64,000 bases of DNA, taken from Salvelinus alpinus (lineage: Eukaryota > Chordata > Actinopteri > Salmoniformes > Salmonidae). The stretch covers positions 36,038,430 through 36,102,429 of the forward strand of contig NC_092094.1 in assembly GCF_045679555.1 (NCBI RefSeq), given 5' to 3'. The notes under the pieces are model-generated. The model saw nothing but the letters and a program-made list of their open reading frames with translations, had not been told where the DNA came from and did not search any database. The position numbers were made by a program, and so were the translations under genes. Below, in pieces: positions 3,991 to 64,000 of the stretch (positions are counted from its first letter, which is position 1; the number at the start of each line of letters is the position of its first letter).

Positions 3991-6360
3991 CTACATAGTT
4001 CAGCAGTGCTATAGCTCCCTCTACAGGCACTGGAAATGTCTGCAGGAAAGAACTCTGGGTGACCCCTCTCTCTGCAGTTGCTGCTGATGTATAGCACATT
4101 CATCTAGCTCAGTGTTGGGAAGAAGCACATTTAAAAGGGAGTTATTTGATGAAGATTTTAGCTGTCACGCTCTCTCTCTCAGAAGAAGGGGACATGCCGT
4201 TGTTGTCAAACTTTAGAAAAAGGCACTTCCTAAGCTCATTACTGTAGCATAAACAAGCACTGAAAAATATATACATTTCTTGTTTGCATTTCCGTTCACT
4301 GATGAGGAGGTTTATGAGGCTTTGCAGGAGAAAAAAAATTAATGTGTGAGAAAGATTATTTTAACATGACCTAATTAGAATGTCACCTATGGGTGGAAAA
4401 TCCAAGGTATAACTTCACTTACAAAGGAGATTACGCAATCAGAATCAGTAACCTCCAGCCTTGCAAAAAATTACAGTGCTGCAGAAGTTTGCATTCTTTC
4501 AAGGCTTCCTCTTCGCATTATAATACTCTATGGCAGCAGAATGCCTGATGAGCCATCAATCTTGATTTCAAAACTGAGTACATTATATACCCAATTTACT
4601 CAGAATACATACTTATCTGATTGCCACAGGGAAAAGTTATGTGCCTGAGAAGTTTATACAAAATTCTAACATTCTCCATACTTCCCTCTGTTAACATAGA
4701 CCAGACCTGATGTAGACCTACAGGGCAAAACATTGCCAATGCAGCTCATGGGAGATTAGATTGCAGTGTACTTTTTGTCAGACAAATCTCTCATACAAAC
4801 TAAAAATACTTCACACATACCAAAAGGTATTTTATAACGCACACATGAAGATCCACATTCCCTGAATTGACTGCTTCATCTGAGCAGCAATGTATACTGC
4901 ATGTTGTGAGCAGGTCAGAGCATTAGCCTATGGGACTTACAGCAGCTTGGTGGCTAAGGCTTCCTGGTAAGGCACTAGCGAAGGATCCCACAGTCCTGGG
5001 ATGAAACCACATCAGCGGTAATGCATTACAGGATGCATATGGAGTAAAACAGCAGGAATGGTCTAGCTGGCTGATAAATAATGTATTGTAATGTATATTA
5101 AAGGCTGAGCCAACACTGCAGCCGTTCCTAGCAGCATATTCTGAGAAGCAGCAGAAGCAGAGGCAGAGTGCTGCTGTAGAAAAGAGCAGACAGTATTCTA
5201 ATTATGCACATCTGAGAGGCAAGCAGAGGCCATCTGTCAGTGTCTGAATCAGTTACCTTATTACCAGTGCCTAAAGATATAAATATAGGAGAGGGAGCTG
5301 CTTTCATTAAGGCACACGGTGGCATGCTGCTTCAGACGGCTCCAAACACAAACTTAATTGCAAATGAGGACTTGTTGTGAGGAGGAGTGGCCCTAGTGTG
5401 GCTGTGCTGTCGCTGACCCCGCAGAGGGCCAGGGCACTAGCGTGTGTAGTGGTATGCCACAGGGCTTGTAATGGCTGTCAAGGCCCCTCGGCTGCCCTCT
5501 CGTCTCACATGGCAAGGATTTTGTCTGTCTGTGTTTTTACTCACGCCCAGGAGTTCTCTTTGACTGTCGATCCGAAGGCCATATTCAGGCTATGATTGTT
5601 GCTGCTCATCATGCAGTGAGGTGTTGTGGATGAGATGCCTGATTAGAAATCAGAACTTTTCTCCGGTCTAACTCTATCTGCTGGTGAGTGGGTGATAAAC
5701 ACTACTTATTTATCAGCAGGCTGATTCACTCTCTCCTCAGGCAAGTCTCAGACACCTTTGACACCAGCGCTTTGGGAAGCACACCTCATTCCAGAGGAAG
5801 CCATAGGGCTCAGTGGACTGCAGATAGCCAGACTGCTGTATTGCAGTGTCTGTCTCTAAATAGAACTGCCTGGGTACCAAACTGTCCATCTTCCTCACAA
5901 TGAAGATAAGACAACACACAGAAAACATTTCCTTACTTTCAACAGGAGCACTATGCTCATACTAAATCAACAAAACATCTATCTACTTAAAGTATACATA
6001 TTTAGATCGATTTTTCCCACAGTAATAAAATAATGTACACATTTCTGGCAGAGGTATGCCAGAGTAATCCCTGTTTTTCCCTCCCCAGATCTCCTATTTG
6101 TGGGCTGGTCTTGAACAGCAGGTGTAGTAGAAGTGAAAAAGAAAGACTACCACACTCTGGTGGCCTGCACAGCATCTCATTTTAGATGGGTGCCAGGAGA
6201 TGGCCCTATACCGCTGACCTGTCACCTGTCAGCCGGCCTACACTCCTGCTTTCCTGACTGCCTGTTCTCCTGCATGGCTGACTACCTGCCTTTCTCCCTC
6301 CCAGTCTCTGCCTATCTGTCTATGCGCCTGCATACAATATACTCTACCTTCCCGTCAGTC
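3991..6360. other. Non-coding stretch
   Basis: Mostly AT-rich sequence without a supportable exon, transposon end or tandem repeat. Presumed intron of mctp2. Confidence 0.35.
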
Positions 6361-6364
6361 AGTA

Positions 6365-6608
<244 letters not shown>

Positions 6609-7375
6609 TCCATACCTGTACCACAGGCTCTGATATGGTGAGCCAGGCCATTGCCTGAGGGGACATCCACCTGAGGATCAGTGAGCAGGGTTTAAAGAAT
6701 ACACCAGGTATGAAATGCACGTCATCCCGAAACAGAACATAGAGAGGAATAAAGGCTGTGAAGACAGGGATCTGTCTGTGACCGCTTCCTCACCCTGACT
6801 TGACGCTGCCAGGGCTTTATGGCAAGAGGATGCTCTTAATCATGACATTACATGTACTTTAAGGGGGATTCATGGGGTGAAATAAAGATTATTTCAGCTT
6901 AGGGCAATAGATCACAACGCCTCATTAAAACCTCTAAACAGAGACATTTATACAAGGTTCAAATCTCCCAGGCCGACTGTCACTCCTCCTCCACACAGAA
7001 AAGCAGGGGGAAGGCTTTACCAGGAAGTCAGATGACCAAACGGCCAGACCGAAGCCCTTCACATAAAGCCCTAGTGCCAGAAGAACACTGAAGGAAGACA
7101 AGTGGGGTTTGAATTAAAGGATAGAGCACAGCTTCTACTTTACTTTCAAATGCAAAATGAAGATGAAGATGGGAGCTTTGATTCATTGGAAGTACGTGAC
7201 TGAGAAACAGTAACAAGAATCTAGATACGTATACCTGAATTAACCATACTGTCCATTATCTATTTCACAGAGACGAAGGAAAGGGTTCAAATGTTCTGCA
7301 GTGAAATAGGACAGAGACACCACTTGCACAGCCCAAGGCTTAGCGCTAGTTCATTAACATGGGGCAATGACTTAC

Positions 7376-16400: not shown

Positions 16401-19400
16401 CTCCACACATGTTGTTAACAAAGAAACAGCCAGAGTGCATCGCATCTATTCAACACACCACTGAGAATACTATGGTGGAGCCTGGCTGGCAAAACACACT
16501 TCTGCACTATACGAGTTATCCATCTTTTTCAAAGTGATAGAAATATACATCTAAGATATACCAACCCCATGTAACCTTCTCTGTAGTGTAACTGCTCAGA
16601 TGGAGTTGGGCAAGGTGTGCTTCCTTAAGGGAAGGTTCCTGGGTGTGTTTTGGCGTCAGAGTCTGGTCTGACTGGAATCACTGTCAAAAATACATTCCAC
16701 ACAGTTAGGGGCCCTTTGTAATGTATGTGCTTCAACTAAAAATGCTTTCTTGATGACATGTTCAAAATCAAGATCAACAAAGTAAATATGATGAATTGCT
16801 TTGTCATCATCCTACTCACGGCATAAGGGACACCTTCTCAAGTTGAAAGTATGTATCTATCAATATACCCAGCATGCATCAGACTTTACATTCATCCATA
16901 TGTAGACCTCCAGAAGTACCAGGTTCTTTTCGTCCACGTACCATTGCGGTCTCTGATGACCAGGTTCCTGCCCTCCTTCAGGTTGACGGTGAGGAGGTAC
17001 TTCTGGATAGGACCAGGTGGGCCCCTTGCTGCCATAGCCTGTCAAGGAAAGGAATCACATTAATACGATGCTTTATAGTCTAAAGTCTTAGTGTTGTCCA
17101 TTATCGTTGACACGGTCAGGACATCCAAGTCCAGTACTCACATTGTTGCCTGCTTGACCCTGCAAGGGCTGGGCATAGAAGTCATTGTGCTCATTGGGTA
17201 ACTAAGGGAGAAAAAAATGTAAGCTTATCAAAAAGACATCTACAAAGTATGGAACAAATGTAGATGTTATCATGTTCAGTCATGTTGTTTACCACTTTTT
17301 AACCTCAGGTACTATAATTGTACCGGCAACCAGTAAGGCAGGTTTGTAGCCTCAACCATGTCTGGCCTTGTAATAAGACAGATCTACATTTAATACAATG
17401 GAAGTGACTTCAGCTCGAAATAATGTTTCTTCTGCTCAGCATATACATTATATGAGTATAGGGATTGCTATCTGCAATGGGATTTCTGACAAAGAACCAC
17501 AGAAGCGTTGTCTTAAAGATAGAATCTTATTTTAAACAATAACAAAGCGGCCACCCGCCTCTGTTTCGTAACCACTCTCTATGGATACAAGGACTGACCG
17601 TCCATGAAATCAAAATTAAAATTATAGTTTTAACCATGTTTTTAAGCTACTGTATACCGTGTTTAATCGAGTACTCAAACGGAAGTCAAAACTCGATCTT
17701 TAACCAGAGATTCATTTTTTTATAATACTGTAAAACGGTCTGATTTATTTCATAACTCTGGTCAAAATTGAAAACAGGGCGACAGGTAGCCTAGCGGTTA
17801 AGAGCGTTGGACCAGCTCAAGCTCTCCTATCACTGCACAACTAGCTCCATGAGTAGGGCCCTGTGTTTTGGTTAATCATGTTGCATGACCTGGATTTTTG
17901 TCGTTATTTAAAGCTTTTCATCAAACTGTCCGATTTCCTTTTCATGTCAGATGGGTCAGCGCCATCATCATTTTGGGTTGAATTCTAATTTCTGGAAATG
18001 GCTAAAAATAAAGGTTCAAATCCAGATCGTTTGACATGATTAACCAAAACACATGTCCGTATCCATGAGAAATCATATGCTTATCACGTACAAAGAAACA
18101 TTCTCAGAGGGCAACAATCTCGTATTACATCCTTTGCCACTGCAAAGCACTGCTGTGACCCTGCCTGAGCCAAGCAGGTGACACAGCTCATTACGGTTTT
18201 GATTAATGATTCTCAACTGGCACTTGTGTTTTATTGACTGAATATAGACTGAACAAAAATATGAACGCAACATGTAAAGTGTTGGTCCCATGTTTCATGA
18301 GCTGAAATAAAAGATTACAGAAATGTTCCATATGCACAAAAAGCTTATTTCTCTCAAATGTTGGGCACAAATTTGTTAACGTCCCTGTTAGTGAGCATCT
18401 CCTTTGCCAAGATAATCCAGCCACCTGACAGGTGTGGCATATCAAGAAGTTGATTAAACACCATGATCATTACACAGGTGCATCTTGTGCAGGGGACAAT
18501 AAAAAGCCACTCTAAAATGTGAAGTTTTGTCACTCAACACAATGCCACAGATGTCTCAAATTTTGAGGGAGCGTGCAATTGGCATTCTGACTGTAGGAAT
18601 GTCCACCAGAGCTGTTGCTAGATAATTTAATTTTAATTTCTCTACCATAAGCCGCCTCCAACGTAGTTTTATAGTAACATATCCAACTGGCCTCACAACC
18701 GCAGACCATGTGTATGGCGTTGTGTGGGCGAGAGGTTTACTGATGTCAACATTGTAAACAGAGAGCCTCTTGGTGGTGGGGTTATGGTATGGGCAGGCAT
18801 AAGCTACAGATAACAAACACAATTGCATTTTATTGATGGCAATTTGAATGCACAGAGATACCGTGACGAGATCCTGAGGCCCATTGTCGTGCCATTCATC
18901 CGACGCCATCACCTCATGTTTCAGCATGATAACGCACAGCCCCAATTCGCAAGGATCTGTAGACAATTCCTGGAAGCTGAAAATGTCCCAGTTCTTCCAT
19001 GGCCTGGATACTCATTAGACATGTCACCCATTGAGCATGTTTGGGATGCTCTGGATCGACGTGTACGACAGCGTGTTCCAGTTCCCGCCAATATCCAGCA
19101 ACTTCGCACAGCCATTGAAGAGGAGTGGGACAACATTCCACAGGCCACAATCAACAGTCTAATCAACTCTATGCGAAGGAGATGTGTCGCGCTGCATGAG
19201 GCAAATGGTGACCAGATACTAACTGGTTTTCTGATCCACGCCCATCTGTGACCAACAGATTCCTATCTGTATTCCCAGTCATGTGAAATCCATATATTAG
19301 GGACTAATGAATGTATTGACTGATTTCCTTATTATTAACTGTACCTCAGTAAAATCTTTGACATTGTTGCATGTTGCGTTTATATTTTTGTTCAGTATAT

Positions 19401-30231: not shown

Positions 30232-30906
30232 TTTGTTATTGGTATATTGGCTTTTGAGAAGTAATGATTATAGATTAAATTCCTGTTCAGTTAGGCGCTA
30301 TGCCTAGTTTGGAGTCAGTGGTGTGTATTCATGGATGCCAAGGGAAGCCAGGCTTCTCCAAATATTTGACCAATAAAAAATGTCAATGATAAAATAATGT
30401 ATATTTCGTCTCTGTGTTTTCATAATTTCCCTTCAATTTGCAAGTGGCTGAATCTCACCTGAGAAATCACCCGAATGAGGGAAACAGTGCCCCTCTGTCT
30501 CAGTATGTGTAGCCCATGTTTCTGACGCTATCTTAACCAAAAGAGTATGACATGTTGCCGCTGTAGCATTTGATTGATTGATGCCAGAAAGCATTTGGCC
30601 TCCCTTGATAAAAAAAGTATGAAAAAATGAGTCAATCAGTATTGAGCTGAGCTCAACTGTGGGTTGTCCTGGCACAGCAAAACGCCCCCTCAAAGGGGAG
30701 GCCAGTTTGGATTTGGCTTCCAGCCAATCAAATCACATCCAACGCTAAATGTAATTCTCAGAAAAACGTGTCTGTTTCTGGTCTACTTATGTTGTTGTCC
30801 TGCAGAAGCTAGCTTCTAAATCGTCCTTTTCCTAAGCCATGGATGGAGATGGGGATTTGGACTTGTGGTTTTGACTTAGATATAGACAATGCTCACATTA
30901 CCTGTA

Positions 30907-32300
30907 CTGAACAAAAATATAAACGCAACATGTAAAGTGTTGGTCCCATGTTTCATGAGCTGTAGTAAAATATCAAGGAAATGTTTCATACGAACAAAAA
31001 GCTTTGCCAAGATAATACATCCACCTGACAGGTGTGGCATATCAAGAAGCTGATTAAACAGCATGATCATTACACAGGTGCACCTTGTGATAGGGACAAT
31101 AAAAGGCCACTCTAAAATGTGCAGTTTTGTCACACAACACAATGCCACAGATGTCTCAAGTTGAGGGAGCGTGCATTTGACATGCTGACTGCAGGAATGT
31201 CCACCAGAGCTGTGACCAGATAATTTAATGTTAATTTCTCTACGTAGTTTTAGAGAATTTGGCAGTACGTCCAACCGGCCTCACAACCGCAGACCACGTG
31301 TATCAATGCCAGCCCAGGACTTCCACATCCGGCTTCTTCACCTGCGGGATCGTCTGAGGCCAGCCACCCAGACAGCTGATGAAACTATGGGTTTGCACAA
31401 CAGAAGAATTTCTGCACAAACTGTCAGAAACCGTCTCAGGGAAGCTGCGTGCTCGTCGTCCTCACCAGGGTATTGACCTGACTGCAGTTTGGCGATGTAA
31501 CCCAACTTCAGTAGGCAAATGCTCACCTTCGATGGCCACTGGCACGCTGGAGAAGTGTGCTCTTTACGGATGAATCCCAGTTTCAACTGTAGCGGGCAAA
31601 TGGTGTCGTGCGGGCGAGCGGTTTGCTGATGTCAACGCTGTGAACAGAGTGCCCCATGGTGGGATTATGGTATGGACAGGCATAAACTGCAGACAACAAC
31701 CACAATTGCATTTTATCGATGGCAATTTGAATGCACAGAGATACCGTGACGAGATCCTGAGGCCCGTTGTCGTGCCATTAATCCGCCGCCATCACCTCAT
31801 GTTTCAACATGATAATGCACAGCCCCATTTTGCAAGGATCTGTAGACAATTCCTGGAAGCTGAAATTGTCCCAGTTCTTCCATGGCCTGGATACTCACCA
31901 GAAATGTCACCCATTGAGCATGTTTGGGATGTTTTGGATCAACGTGTACGACAGCGTGTTATAGTTCCCAGCAATATCCAGCAACTTCGCACAGCCATTT
32001 AAGAGGAGTGGGACAACATTCCACAATCAACAGCCTGATCAACTCTATGCGAAGGAGATGTGTCGCGCTGCATGAGGCAAATGGTTGTCAGACCAGATAC
32101 TGACTGGTTTTCTTAACCACGCCCCTACCTTTTTTTAAGTATCTGTGACCAACAGATGCATGTCTGTATTCCCAGTCATGTGAAATCCATAGAATAGGGG
32201 CCAATTCATTTATTTCAATTGACTGATTTCCTTAAATGAACTGTAACTCAATAAAATCTTTGAAATTGTTGCATGCTGCGTTTTATATTTTTGTTCAATG
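30907..32300 (+). pseudogene. Tc1-like element, copy 2 (inactive)
   Basis: The ends read CTGAACAAAAATATAAACGC and its inverted partner, each bordered by TA (30905-30906 and 32301-32302). Transposase pieces are in several frames. An N-terminal helix-turn-helix part (about 31228-31480) includes MGLHNRRISAQTVRNRLREA, and a catalytic part at 31640-32002 has HFIDGN, HDNAQP and SPIEHVWD. Frameshifts and a stop after QQLRTAI (TAA at about 32000) inactivate it. It is the same family as 18247-19396. Confidence 0.88.
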
Positions 32301-39139: not shown

Positions 39140-42100
39140 CTGTAGAGAGGAACAGCACGGGGTCAGTGGCCATTTGGATAGTAACATAGATCAGGTGCTT
39201 GGAGTGGTGGTTGGAAAATTGACATTTGAAAGAGTCCAAGCTATGTACTTTGAACGTGTATATAATGTGTGCACTGAATATTCTATTAATGTGTGGGTGT
39301 CTATGTGTTTGTGTGTGTGTTTGCTAGTGTGTTACTCACACCAAAGAGCTGAGAGCTGCCTGGCTCAGTTGATGTTGTTGCCATGCCGACATGGAGCCCA
39401 AAGAGAGCCCTGGAGAGCCGAAGCCCTGTAGGGAGGAGATCTCTGCACTGCTCAGGGAGTACTCTGCAACAACAACAGCACCAGAGAACAGTGAGTTACA
39501 CACACTCCCCCTCCCACTGCTACTGCAGCAGCACCTCTCACCACAGGAGACCAGCCCAATCAGTAACAGCCAGGCAGGCAGCACCGAGGCAGCCGTGGCA
39601 GGGGACAGAGTGGTAGACTCACCGGTGTTGTAGCCGGTGGGCATGCCTGAGTAGACCAGGCCTTGGGGGGGCAGACTGGGTGTGGTGACAGACACTACTG
39701 GGGTGGCCAGTAGCTGGGACTGGGAGCTGCTTATCCTGTGGGTGTTCTGTAAACAGTACAAAGAAAACAGATTTAATGAAGAAAACAACCCTGTAGGGTG
39801 CTGTAAAGGCTTACTGTGGTGAACCCAAAGTGCAAGATGGTAAATTAATATAGCTAAAAACATGTTACAGATATGTTGTGTATATATTAGCTGGACAGCA
39901 TTTTTTTAAAAGTCATAATATGATAAGACTATAATAACTTAGCAATGAAAAATGTGTTGCAATACTACTTCCCACCAAGAGGTGGCACTGTAGCTTCATG
40001 TCACAATCCAGATAACGTATTGAGCCGTGTTTGTATTATATGATGACTGTTTGACAATATGTGTTATAAGAAAAAAACTATATCCCATAAAGACTTAAAT
40101 ACTGTTTTTGTCCAATATTGATAGATTGAATGTTGTCTGTGGGTAAATCTGTAAACAGATTATGGATCATCAGAAACAGGAATACCGTTTTACCATACAT
40201 ACATTTACCATACATACACAATAGTGGGATTTTGTGCTGACATGCACTCGTTGTTGTATTCCGATTTCCTTACAAGCTAATGTAAATGCTCTTCAGCACT
40301 CAAATTGTTTATAGACTGTGAATAAAGAAAATGGTCAATTCAATGACTACCAAAGATGTCTAAAAAAAACAGATGTCTTACTACTACTGCCAGAAAGAGA
40401 GACAGGTCCTTCATTTTTTATAACATATAGTAGCTCCTACATATCTCCTAAAAAAACGCAATCCTGGGTGCAGTGGCTGCATGCTGTCCCAAGCACACAG
40501 TCACAAAACACAGTGCCTTCATGGAGTAGCAACAGGATCACACAAACTCTGAGAATGCCAATCATGGCAGGCACTCATTAGGACCACAAACTCACTGGTC
40601 AAATGTTGGGTCATTTATAGATCTATGGATGCTTTAGTCAAATCTTCTGAGAATATAGTATTCTGTTCATTATGTACCCACTAATATAAATGTTTAATGC
40701 TACACTTGTTTGTTCTGATGTGAAAGTGAGACTATTTTGCTAGCACCTAACAGAGGCAAAATGGCAGAGTTAGCATGAGCTGCAGGACTGTTTGTGATCT
40801 GGGTGGGAATAACATCAAGAGACACCTTTTACTGCATCGATCTAGGAAACACATACAGCATGTCATATCATATGATTACTCTGTGATCTGAGCAGCTCTG
40901 GTATGGCAATTTGTAATATAGTGCAGTTGAGGGTTTAATTTGAGGCAATATTGCATCATGACAGTTTGATAACTTCCTTGGAAATATCCGCTGCTCCTAC
41001 TCTCTCCAACCAGATGACATCATCCAAAAACAAGCTTCTCTAAGAATGACATAATCCACAATGAAGTAATCTGCCCCTCCCCATGAAGAACAATCCCAGA
41101 TTTCAAATCTGTTCTTTGGAAATTACTTTGTAGTTTTATACATATTACAAAACCTTTTGTTTAAAACAATTATACTGTTGAAGTCAGAAGTTTACATACA
41201 CCTTAGACCAGGGGTGTCAAAGTCAAATGGACGGAGGGCCAAATAAAAAATTTAGCTACAAGCCGAGGGCCGGACTGTTCGAATGTTCATTGAAAAAATT
41301 TTAAATGACGCATATAGTCTAGTGAACCTAATTGAACCTACTGAAAACCTAACAAATATATTCCAATATGATCAGATAAATAAAGCAATATTTTCTTATG
41401 GCTCTGTCAGTAATCTTTAATTTTCAACAGACACAAAAGACAAATTTCCTTTATATAAAAATCCCCATAACATGAACATTAAATGAAAGAAACCGGTATT
41501 CAAGGCACCATCAGTAGCCTATATTTTCTATTTTAGCAAAAGTGGGCTAAATTTACTTCAAAGAAAAAAACAATAATAGCAATTTTCTATCATCCACTCA
41601 ACTGAAATATTTTTAAAATATAATTGGATTGAAATACAATAAAATAAAGTGCAAAAATCTATTAATCAAAAACAACACTTTGTTTAAGGAGAAGTAACAT
41701 GCAGTGAAAACAAATATTAAACTTTAACTTTTAAACTTGAACTGAGTAAAAACTCTAAATATGTGATTGCACAGTAATGTTCACTTGTTTGAGGTTGAGG
41801 GTGATACTTGGTGGTGTCCCATCTTTTCCACAAGTTCATCAATGTTCGGGGTAAGGCTCTGAGCTGAGGAAATCCTCAGAATTGAGTGGAGGTGTTCAGC
41901 AGTAAGTCGACTTCTGTGTGATGTTTTGTTCAGGTTCATCAAAGAAAACAGTTGTTCACACAGGTATGTGCTGCCAAACATAGACAACGTTTGAGCAGCC
42001 TGGATGCGCAGCTGGGGCATTGTGTCGGGGAGGAAACGGGCGAACTCCGCAGCACCCACTGCCGCATATTTTGCCCTCAGTGCATCATTGCATTGGAGGT

Positions 42101-45100
42101 CAATCAACTCCATTTGGAGGTTTGGTGGTGAGCTTTCCACGTCAACAGCAAATGGGTTACCGAGCAGTTCCAACCTGCTTTTTTGTGCTTCAAAGTCAGC
42201 AAATCGGCGTCGAAAGTCAGCGGCAAGCATACCTATTTTATCAGCCAACTGTGCGCTCGGGAACGCACTGGTAGAGAGCTTCTCTTTCATGGTCTGGCAG
42301 CTGGGAAAGTGGCTCAAATTTTCTTTCCGCATCTGCGTCTCCCACAGAGTCAGTTTGGTTTTAAATGCCTTCACTGTACTGTACATATCAGAGATGACAT
42401 GATCCCGACCCTGCAGCTGCAAGTTCATTGCATTCAGATGACTCGTAATGTCACACAGAAAAGCCATTTCACACAGAAACATTTCGTCTCGGAGTTGTGT
42501 TGTGTCTTTCCCTTTGCTGTCCAAGAACAGACAAATCTCCTCACGAAGCTCGAAACATCTTTGAAGCACCTTTCCCTGGCTTAGCCATCGCACCTCTGTG
42601 TGATAAGGCAAATCACCATGCTCCGTTTCTAACTCCGTCAGAAATGCCTTGAACTGGCGGTGATTCAAACCTTTGGCTCTGATAAAGTTAACTGTGCGCG
42701 TGATGATGCTCATTACATGCTCCATTTTCAAGGCTTTACCGCACAACGCTTCCTGGTGTATGATACAATGATAAGCTGTCAGCTCACCTGTCGCGTTTTC
42801 CTCTTGCATCTTTTCCCGTATCTTCGCCACCAGTCCGCTCCTGTGTCCACACATCGCAGGTGCTCCGTCGGTTGTCAAACCCACGAGTTTTTCCCAAGGC
42901 AGCTCCATCTCATTTACACAGCAGCCTACTGCTCGGTGCGTCACCGTTGCATTGTGGGAAATGTAGTATTGGTGCGTGTAAAAGATCTGCGGGCTGCCGG
43001 CTTGCTGCGGTCTGCGGGCCGGTTCTAATAATAAATCAAGATCATCCCAGGGGCCGTAAAAAACCTTCTCGCGGGCCGGATGTGGCCCGCGGGCCTTGAC
43101 TCTGACATATATGGTCTAAGGCATATATGTCAGAGTCAAGGCCCGCGGGCCACATCCGGCCCGCGAGAAGGTTTTTTCCGGCCCCTGGGATGATCTTGAT
43201 TTATTATTAGAACCGGCCCGCAGACCGCAGCAAGCCGGCAGCCCGCAGATCTTTTACACGCACCAATACTACATTTCCCACAATGCAACGGTGACGCACC
43301 GAGCAGTAGGCTGCTGTGTAAATGAGATGGAGCTGCCTTGGGAAAAACTCGTGGGTTTGACAACCGACGGAGCACCTGCGATGTGTGGACACAGGAGCGG
43401 ACTGGTGGCGAAGATACGGGAAAAGATGCAAGAGGAAAACGCGACAGGTGAGCTGACAGCTTATCATTGTATCATACACCAGGAAGCGTTGTGCGGTAAA
43501 GCCTTGAAAATGGAGCATGTAATGAGCATCATCACGCGCACAGTTAACTTTATCAGAGCCAAAGGTTTGAATCACCGCCAGTTCAAGGCATTTCTGACGG
43601 AGTTAGAAACGGAGCATGGTGATTTGCCTTATCACACAGAGGTGCGATGGCTAAGCCAGGGAAAGGTGCTTCAAAGATGTTTCGAGCTTCGTGAGGAGAT
43701 TTGTCTGTTCTTGGACAGCAAAGGGAAAGACACAACACAACTCCGAGACGAAATGTTTCTGTGTGAAATGGCTTTTCTGTGTGACATTACGAGTCATCTG
43801 AATGCAATGAACTTGCAGCTGCAGGGTCGGGATCATGTCATCTCTGATATGTACAGTACAGTGAAGGCATTTAAAACCAAACTGACTCTGTGGGAGACGC
43901 AGATGCGGAAAGAAAATTTGAGCCACTTTCCCAGCTGCCAGACCATGAAAGAGAAGCTCTCTACCAGTGCGTTCCCGAGCGCACAGTTGGCTGATAAAAT
44001 AGGTATGCTTGCCGCTGACTTTCGACGCCGATTTGCTGACTTTGAAGCACAAAAAAGCAGGTTGGAACTGCTCGGTAACCCATTTGCTGTTGACGTGGAA
44101 AGCTCACCACCAAACCTCCAAATGGAGTTGATTGACCTCCAATGCAATGATGCACTGAGGGCAAAATATGCGGCAGTGGGTGCTGCGGAGTTCGCCCGTT
44201 TCCTCCCCGACACAATGCCCCAGCTGCGCATCCAGGCTGCTCAAACGTTGTCTATGTTTGGCAGCACATACCTGTGTGAACAACTGTTTTCTTTGATGAA
44301 CCTGAACAAAACATCACACAGAAGTCGACTTACTGCTGAACACCTCCACTCAATTCTGAGGATTTCCTCAGCTCAGAGCCTTACCCCGAACATTGATGAA
44401 CTTGTGGAAAAGATGGGACACCACCAAGTATCACCCTCAACCTCAAACAAGTGAACATTACTGTGCAATCACATATTTAGAGTTTTTACTCAGTTCAAGT
44501 TTAAAAGTTAAAGTTTAATATTTGTTTTCACTGCATGTTACTTCTCCTTAAACAAAGTGTTGTTTTTGATTAATAGATTTTTGCACTTTATTTTATTGTA
44601 TTTCAATCCAATTATATTTTAAAAATATTTCAGTTGAGTGGATGATAGAAAATTGCTATTATTGTTTTTTTCTTTGAAGTAAATTTAGCCCACTTTTGCT
44701 AAAATAGAAAATATAGGCTACTGATGGTGCCTTGAATACCGGTTTCTTTCATTTAATGTTCATGTTATGGGGATTTTTATATAAAGGAAATTTGTCTTTT
44801 GTGTCTGTTGAAAATTAAAGATTACTGACAGAGCCATAAGAAAATATTGCTTTATTTATCTGATCATATTGGAATATATTTGTTAGGTTTTCAGTAGGTT
44901 CAATTAGGTTCACTAGACTATATGCGTCATTTAAAAAATTTTCAATGAACATTCGAACAGTCCGGCCCTCGGCTTGTAGCTAAATTTTTTATTTGGCCCT
45001 CCGTCCATTTGACTTTGACACCCCTGCCTTAGACCAATACATTTAAACTCAGTTTTTCACAATTCCTGACATTTAATCCTAGGTTGGGATGGTGTTCTTC

Positions 45101-62095: not shown

Positions 62096-62676
62096 ACACA
62101 ACATGTGTAAATGTGCAGTTAGATGCACTTGTTTTTGGTGTGGTACAGAGCAGGGGCATTCTTCTCCCAAAAAAAAACACCTCCCTGGTTCATTTCCTGT
62201 TTACTAAGGCTGCTCTTTAGTTAGGCTCCCGTAAAGGCTGTGTTTACTACGGAAACTATGCACTTTCTCCACCAGTCTGCCACAGATCTGATCGGGACCT
62301 GCAAATTAAAGTCCCAACCTGCTCATTATGGGAATAGCTGGTTTGGGCTGGTCGGCCATGGCTGTGTGAGATGGGCAGGGCAGCAGGCAGCACTTCCACA
62401 ACAAGCCTCCAACCAGCCGCACCCCTCTGGTCCTTGGCCGTGATCACTCAGAGAGGGGCCAGTGGAAACATCCAGTGCCAGGGACACTCAGCATTCAGAA
62501 CAAACCATGGAACATGTTGCAATGAGACTAAACAACACAAAGCCTAACAACGAGTGCTCATATCTAGGTCATTGTCCATAAGAGATGGATTCATAAGTAA
62601 ATATTGATCACTCTGATTAGAGATGTCCTGAAATGCAACATCACTTAAAATGAGGACATAATCATGCGCGCCTAAG
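62096..62676. other. mef2a: mef2a intron without recognised elements
   Basis: No supported feature. Confidence 0.3.
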
Positions 62677-63390
62677 AAAGAGTGAATATTTCCTCCGAGG
62701 TGCTCCTAGCTGAGCATGCTAAAGAGTGAATATTTCCTCCGAGGTGCTCCTAGCTGAGCATGCTAAAGAGTGAATATTTCCTCCGAGGTGCTCCTAGCTG
62801 AGCATGCTAAAGAGTGAATATTTCCTCCGAGGTGCTCCTAGCTGAGCATGCTAAAGAGTGAATATTTCCTCCGAGGTGCTCCTAGCTGAGCATGCTAAAG
62901 AGTGAATATTTCCTCCGAGGTGCTCCTAGCTGAGCATGCTAAAGAGTGAATATTTCCTCCGAGGTGCTCCTAGCTGAGCATACTAAAGAGTGAATATTTC
63001 CTCCGAGGTGCTCCTAGCTGAGCATACTAAAGAGTGAATATTTCCTCCGAGGTGCTCCTAGCTGAGCATACTAAAGAGTGAATATTTCCTCCGAGGTGCT
63101 CCTAGCTGAGCATGATAAAGAGTGAATATTTCCTCCGAGGTGCTCCTAACTGAGCATGATAAAGAGTGAATATTTCCTCCGAGGTGCTCCTAGCTGAGCA
63201 TGCTAAAGAGTGAATATTTCCTCCGAGGTGCTCCTAGCTGAGCATGCTAAAGAGTGAATATTTCCTCCGAGGTGCTCCTAGCTGAGCATGCTAAAGAGTG
63301 AATATTTCCTCCGAGGTGCTCCTAGCTGAGCATGCTAAAGAGTGAATATTTCCTTCGAGGTGCTCCTAGCTGAGCATGTTAAAGAGTGAA
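62677..63390. repeat. 44-bp minisatellite, 16 copies
   Basis: The unit starts AAAGAGTGAATATTTCCTCC and continues GAGGTGCTCCTAGCTGAGCA then TGCT. Sixteen full copies and a partial one were counted. Variants cluster: CATACT after copies 7-9, CATGAT after copies 10-11, CTAACT in copy 11, and CCTTCG in copy 16. The unit is not a multiple of three and is not coding. Confidence 0.97.
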
Positions 63391-64000
63391 GGTCTGGGAC
63401 AGCATGGCCGTTATTCCTCCTTAAATGACTTGGCATGTTTCGGGTGTCCCACAGACGCTGCCCGCAGCTCCCAGTAAATGGATCACTAAATCAGCACATG
63501 GCCAAACAGGTGTCTCTCTACCAAACACCTGTCAGGCCCTGGTTCCCCGGCCCAGCCAATCACAAACAGTCTCACACCGACATGGCCTTAGAAGGAGCCA
63601 CATGGAACCCTGAAGGCCATCAAACATTCCCCCAGCCAAGGATTTTACTCCATAATATAAATATATCAAAGTATTGGTAAAGCAATTCAAATCTTACACA
63701 AAACCTAGAAAACAAAACCAACCAACTCTGAACGCATTGGGTACAGATGGCATTTCAATGTATAGTTTTGATTTACTTTTGGTTGAGTTGTCAACTAACG
63801 TGAAATCAACAAAACATTTCACCATGTCACTGCATTTAGGTTAAGAGTTGGGTGGAAAAAAACATGAAATTATCTTATGTTGATACAATGTCATCACAAT
63901 TATTTGTTGTTGTTGAAATGACATGGAAACAGCGTTGATTCAGACAGTTTTTGCCCGGTGGGAAGTATGGTAAACAAAATCCTAAATAAAACAAGCGTCC
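63391..64000. other. mef2a: Non-coding to window end, presumed mef2a intron
   Basis: No supported feature. The last 300 nt (about 63735-63960) resemble a dispersed repeat in style (TTGATTTACTTTTGGTTGAG, TTGTTGAAATGACATGGAAA), but no second copy is present to confirm it. Confidence 0.35.

Follow-up and report, generated by a model that had tools for sequence, protein, structure and literature searches.

A 64,000-nucleotide stretch of the Salvelinus alpinus genome (contig NC_092094.1, positions 36,038,430 to 36,102,429; hereafter the window) contains a near-perfect palindrome made of two copies of an hAT transposon, E1 and E2, which lie in opposite orientation and meet at their right ends across an 8-bp spacer. 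The palindrome occupies window positions 41201-45034 and has the layout X-E1-X'-E2'-X, in which X is the target-site duplication (CCTTAGAC), X' (GTCTAAGG) reproduces X exactly in reverse complement, and the prime on E2 marks its inversion. We consider it probable that this arrangement arose through two successive insertions, from different source lineages, at one 8-bp target, followed by a flip of the centre.

The palindrome was confirmed as real in the assembly. Its arms, each 1,905 bp long, align without gaps and differ at 3 of 1,905 pairs, at element positions 89, 90 and 1849 (numbered from the outer, left end), and the right ends of E1 and E2 bound the spacer to the base (Table 1). Within the window, CCTTAGAC is present at the two outer sites only and GTCTAAGG as the spacer only. 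By simple arithmetic, a random 8-mer would equal the duplication or its complement with a chance of 2/65,536; granting the central TA of the family's targets raises this to 2/4,096. With so exact a reverse complement of X as the spacer, coincidence is a very unlikely origin, and X' constrains every model of how the palindrome formed. When joined, the flanks of the dimer make up a single Tc1-like end, and an uninterrupted relative in the flank of another copy (L007) aligns across the junction; we take this repeat to be Sleeping Beauty-like, a name that an earlier note on this DNA had given. That note had described two near-identical inverted copies of 1,905 bp around an 8-bp spacer, a perfect outer duplication and an interrupted repeat that resumes after it, and the anatomy agrees on each point. 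Its term "head-to-head" is also apt, as the transposase remnants of E1 and E2 read outward from the centre, and we accept as right its view that so near-perfect a palindrome is recent. The reverse-complement relation of the spacer to the outer duplication is absent from it.

Table 1. Components of the hAT palindrome, in window coordinates
Feature	Position	Strand	Remarks
Outer target-site duplication X, CCTTAGAC, left	41201..41208	+	Inside Tc1-like end; matches nnnTAnnn target of the hAT family
hAT copy E1	41209..43113	+	Left end outermost (CAGGGGTG...), right end innermost (...CATATATG)
387-amino-acid C-terminal transposase remnant in E1	41781..42944	-	N-terminal part absent compared with the 2,658-bp long form, L081
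8-bp spacer X', GTCTAAGG	43114..43121	.	Exact reverse complement of X
hAT copy E2, inverted	43122..45026	-	Unlike E1 at 89, 90 and 1849; 90T and 1849G as in L072
387-amino-acid C-terminal transposase remnant in E2	43291..44454	+	
Outer target-site duplication X, CCTTAGAC, right	45027..45034	+	

We searched the genome (2.37 Gb in 928 contigs) for further copies of the element. When candidates were scored by likeness to E1, the 40 best of 460 yielded 41 full-length matches, all 100% identical after rounding. Whole-element comparison, letter by letter, covered 47 copies, 41 of them from this likeness search, so that the identity values are no measure of the family's age. We counted 185 exact occurrences of the 23-bp right end (93 + 92), and 69 distinct right ends of these 185 were included in a survey of flanks. 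Identical 8-bp flanks were present in 41 of the 47 full-length copies, which agrees with the earlier assignment to the hAT type; the exceptions were the window pair, the pair L002/L003 described below, and L029 and L035, whose flanks are mismatched. TA occupied flank positions 4-5 in 68 of the 69 distinct right ends, and the 69th meets an N gap. The family thus has the nnnTAnnn target consensus that is given for Buster-type hAT elements (PMC3517528); the authors of a paper on hAT groups state that target preference was not studied there (PMC3942097). We regard the element as a young member of the hAT superfamily that targets nnnTAnnn.

A long form of 2,658 bp, at locus L081, contains a 638-amino-acid frame with a zinc finger that passes the Pfam cut-off (zf-C2H2_12, 37.9 bits against 27.3). 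Scores for the hAT dimerisation domain (PF05699, cut-off 21.4 bits) stayed below that cut-off both for this frame (12.7 bits, E 0.12) and for the 387-amino-acid remnant (13.6 bits, E 0.06), and DUF4371 scored 20.2 bits, under its cut-off of 32.1. Pfam at E values up to 0.01 gave no match for the remnant; sequence searches of the PDB yielded nothing credible, and those of phage records nothing at all. Relative to the 2,658-bp form, the 1,905-bp form appears to be internally shortened by 753 bp and is probably non-autonomous. A shorter derivative that keeps approximately positions 1-301 and 1358-1905 was seen in L051, L055, L063 and L073, and this deletion form, which resembles a miniature inverted-repeat transposable element (MITE), seems to have spread itself. 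Across the 47 copies, the boundary between an A run and a T run at element positions 85-95 (window 41293-41303) slides between A7T3, A6T4, A5T5, A4T6 and A3T7, and outside these positions nearly all differences are singletons.

The variants that separate the two arms point to two sources. E1 is equal, letter for letter, to 17 of the 39 copies with which it was compared. E2 carries 89T, 90T and 1849G, and among the 69 distinct right ends 1849G has one other occurrence, in L072, which lies on contig C12, has a clean duplication of its own (TTGTAGAG) and combines 90T with 1849G as E2 does. Because 90T and 1849G are common to E2 and L072, while E1 equals 17 other copies, the comparison suggests that E2 was inserted from another source copy, which is a better reading than a mirror copy of E1. 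Fold-back duplication of a single copy was likewise disfavoured, since the arms carry variants of different sub-lineages. The earlier note had held the dimer to be one insertion and not two independent ones; that claim lacks support, given these variants and a spacer that is an inverted third copy of the target, which is what a second insertion into the first copy's duplication with a later flip would leave. Nor was there any sign of the dimer moving as one unit: the genome search that the note had called for returned many single copies and, among the 185 right ends, one right-8-right junction (exact pattern), that of the window.

We next consider where the family inserts. A target matrix was built from 34 insertion sites with both strands added, excluding L032 (flank equal to that of L017), L040 (the window locus) and copies with unequal flanks. 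The target preference is roughly palindromic and extends past the 8 bp. After insertion, the score of the duplication beside the right end changes by a mean of +0.5 bits; at the window site this duplication scores 8.84 or 10.52 bits, depending on orientation, against 8.23 for the empty site, and a score of 10.52 is reached by 3e-5 of the other window positions. Beside the left end, the mean change is -5.7 bits, and the window site scores 4.35 or 2.73. The right-end duplication thus stays a good target while the left-end one becomes poor, and the matrix therefore predicts second insertions on the right-end side. The sole dimer found is right-to-right, and among 58 distinct left ends with flank, the preceding 60 bp never contain a further element end.

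Identical sites are re-used by the family, as one position (GTCTAGGG) of a repeat that we take to be related to long interspersed nuclear elements (LINE-like) was hit in three distinct flanks (L017, L048 and L077, among the 69 right ends; related by eye). L032 also lies at GTCTAGGG, with a 128-bp joined flank equal to that of L017, of which it may be a duplicate. Copies at two further pairs of loci, L005/L037 and L020/L022, sit at corresponding sites in related repeats and are oppositely oriented. The Tc1-like end with CCTTAGAC has 191 exact intact matches genome-wide. Comparison of the joined, empty Tc1-like site with the loci surveyed (69 of the 185 right ends) revealed no other insertion there and no sign of a hot spot.

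A second pair of inverted copies bears on the flip. The pair L002/L003 (contig C36:10104713-10110216) consists of copies in opposite orientation, separated by 1,694 bp, whose duplications CTCTATAC and CTCTACAT have changed places. We rejoined the flanks into their pre-inversion order and counted an alignment as spanning a junction when it started before base 120 and ended after base 180 of 300. Other repeat copies aligned across the first rejoined junction at four loci (L057, L043, L075 and L026; 83-92% identical) and across the second at two (L070 at 77% and L066 at 71%, gapped); L066 and L070 cover the two copies also represented by L017 and L032 and are not independent. No alignment passed the spanning test at the junctions as assembled, although some overran them by 8 to 13 bases. 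Exchanged duplications are described as a mark of ectopic recombination between inverted transposons (PMC2775673). As read from these alignments, L002/L003 represents a small transposon-mediated inversion and shows that oppositely oriented E copies do give rise to inversions in this genome. The window pair (X...X'...X) and L002/L003 have in common the opposite orientation of the copies and inner flanks that are exchanged or inverted.

In the history that we favour, a first hAT copy would have inserted into the Tc1-like repeat to give X-E-X, and a second copy, in the opposite orientation, would then have entered the X beside the first copy's right end. The product, X-E1-X-E2'-X, would be a 3.8-kb palindrome with an 8-bp spacer, and a later inversion of the 8-bp centre would lead to the present X-E1-X'-E2'-X. 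We infer this order of insertions, and X rather than X' as the first state of the spacer. A flip is required because two plain insertions give the spacer X and the observed spacer is X'; two plain insertions without a flip were therefore rejected, as the spacer would be CCTTAGAC. Likely agents of the flip would be a polymerase that switches template, or a break at the palindrome centre that is repaired from the sister in inverted alignment. Template switching is reported to invert spacers between inverted-repeat arms in yeast, and to do so reversibly (PMC8604942). The markers at 89/90 and 1849 are in the same phase in the dimer arms as in L072 and the common type; if the ancestral dimer already carried these variants, the arms would have kept them while the spacer alone changed. 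An ordinary mid-arm crossover was disfavoured by the marker phase, and an event local to the centre appears to fit it better.

Several points weigh against this history. Positions 88-91 lie where an A run meets a T run, and since this boundary varies recurrently, being shifted in many copies, the case for a separate source leans on 1849G, which is found in one other copy; the argument fails if L072 descended from E2. We found no unflipped dimer with the spacer X, and with a single exact dimer genome-wide the flip rests on one case. A single crossover would have to lie no more than 88 bp from an outer end or no more than 56 bp from the centre, which by arithmetic leaves 144 of the 1,905 positions. 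The yeast spacer inversions reported in PMC8604942 involve far shorter arms and spacers. Finally, target preference alone gives no reason to favour inverted dimers, and the count of right-8-left tandems (exact pattern, genome-wide), which was 0, is not explained by the matrix.

Other origins were also weighed. The dimer might have formed in one step, either from two copies in one transposition complex or from a single copy that folded back while DNA was replicated or repaired, with the reversed target becoming the centre. Such a route would make a separate flip unnecessary, and it agrees with the single outer duplication, the near-identical arms, a spacer derived from the target and the occurrence of one such junction (exact pattern) in the genome. 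However, the sub-lineage variants that differ between the arms speak against simple fold-back copying, both new junctions fall exactly at transposon ends, and, by reasoning, we could find no chemistry that would place X' directly between two right ends; we regard a one-step origin as unlikely. In the form of a coupled single hAT event, in which two copies enter one target with one outer duplication and the dimer is born with the reversed target between its right ends, we give it only a slight chance. The dimer could instead have arisen elsewhere, in a Tc1-like copy that shares these 8 bp, and moved as a composite, via its two left ends, into the present site in reverse orientation. The 191 exact Tc1-like end matches with CCTTAGAC provide for such a donor, and the marker phase would be explained with no crossover. 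Against this stand the lack of any other insertion or hot-spot sign at the site among the right ends surveyed and the need for two left ends to function as a pair. By exact pattern, moreover, the genome has the dimer at one locus, with one right-8-right junction and no other exact dimer, and a composite jump seems improbable.

An assembly artefact is the explanation to which we give least credence. Palindromes are hard to assemble, and on contig C1 (L081, C1:32919400-32927700) two 2,658-bp copies, alike over 2,656 aligned bp with 3 mismatches, face each other with their right ends across a 100-N gap. We did not count L081 as a second dimer, as its centre is that gap and its outer 8-mers differ (CTCTAGCC and AGTTAAAC). 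The window dimer, however, contains no gap; a fold-back read should carry one and the same flank on both sides, whereas here the flanks together make up a single Tc1-like end, half on each side; and an exact inverted target between exact ends, together with lineage markers in the arms, would hardly result from error.

Other repeats were observed elsewhere in the window. Interrelated tandem repeats with an 8-bp period lie far apart, at 2-215, at 6341-6646 and from 60990, and a 44-bp minisatellite occupies 62538-63541, its inner copies being 97-98% alike. Two related dispersed repeats (18248-19317 and 30906-32214) are in direct orientation, 86-93% alike over several blocks, with a spacing of approximately 12.6-12.9 kb.

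Parts of this picture are familiar from other systems. Like L002/L003, the Galileo elements at the Drosophila inversion 2z3 are described as opposite copies with the segment between them inverted and the inner flanks exchanged (PMC2775673); Galileo, however, is a P-superfamily element and what it inverted is a piece of chromosome, whereas in the window only 8 bp are inverted and the two copies have a single target site in common. In the yeast work cited above (PMC8604942), a spacer between perfect arms likewise inverts, can revert, and does so preferentially with long arms, but those arms measure approximately 10-16 bp and the inverted spacers 2-5 bp, compared with the 1,905-bp transposon arms and target-copy spacer of the window. 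Mar, a Buster-type hAT with MITEs, has the same 8-bp nnnTAnnn duplication and non-autonomous derivatives of a longer element; it comes from Drosophila, and the accessible part of its description mentions no dimers (PMC3517528). The hAT MITE tandem arrays at Atlantic cod inversion breakpoints are similar in being fish hAT derivatives in close repeated copies with a link to inversion, and differ in consisting of approximately 167-bp units within long inverted repeats; "TSD", for target-site duplication, occurs 0 times in the main text of that report (PMC12368964). Among the open-licence papers listed by our searches, none describes, in its title or at the start of its abstract, an inverted hAT dimer whose spacer is the target site in reverse. 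The finding is a combination of known processes, and the combination itself was not found in the open-licence literature searched.

In this case one can read from the sequence how a long palindrome may originate in a large genome, in which a transposon with a palindromic target preference would re-enter its own duplication beside one specific end and the centre would then flip. Such a flip leaves a scar that can be recognised, the 8-bp duplication in reverse, and this would make centre-flipping of natural palindromes countable across genomes, while L002/L003 illustrates how copies of the same family may serve as the ends of a small inversion.

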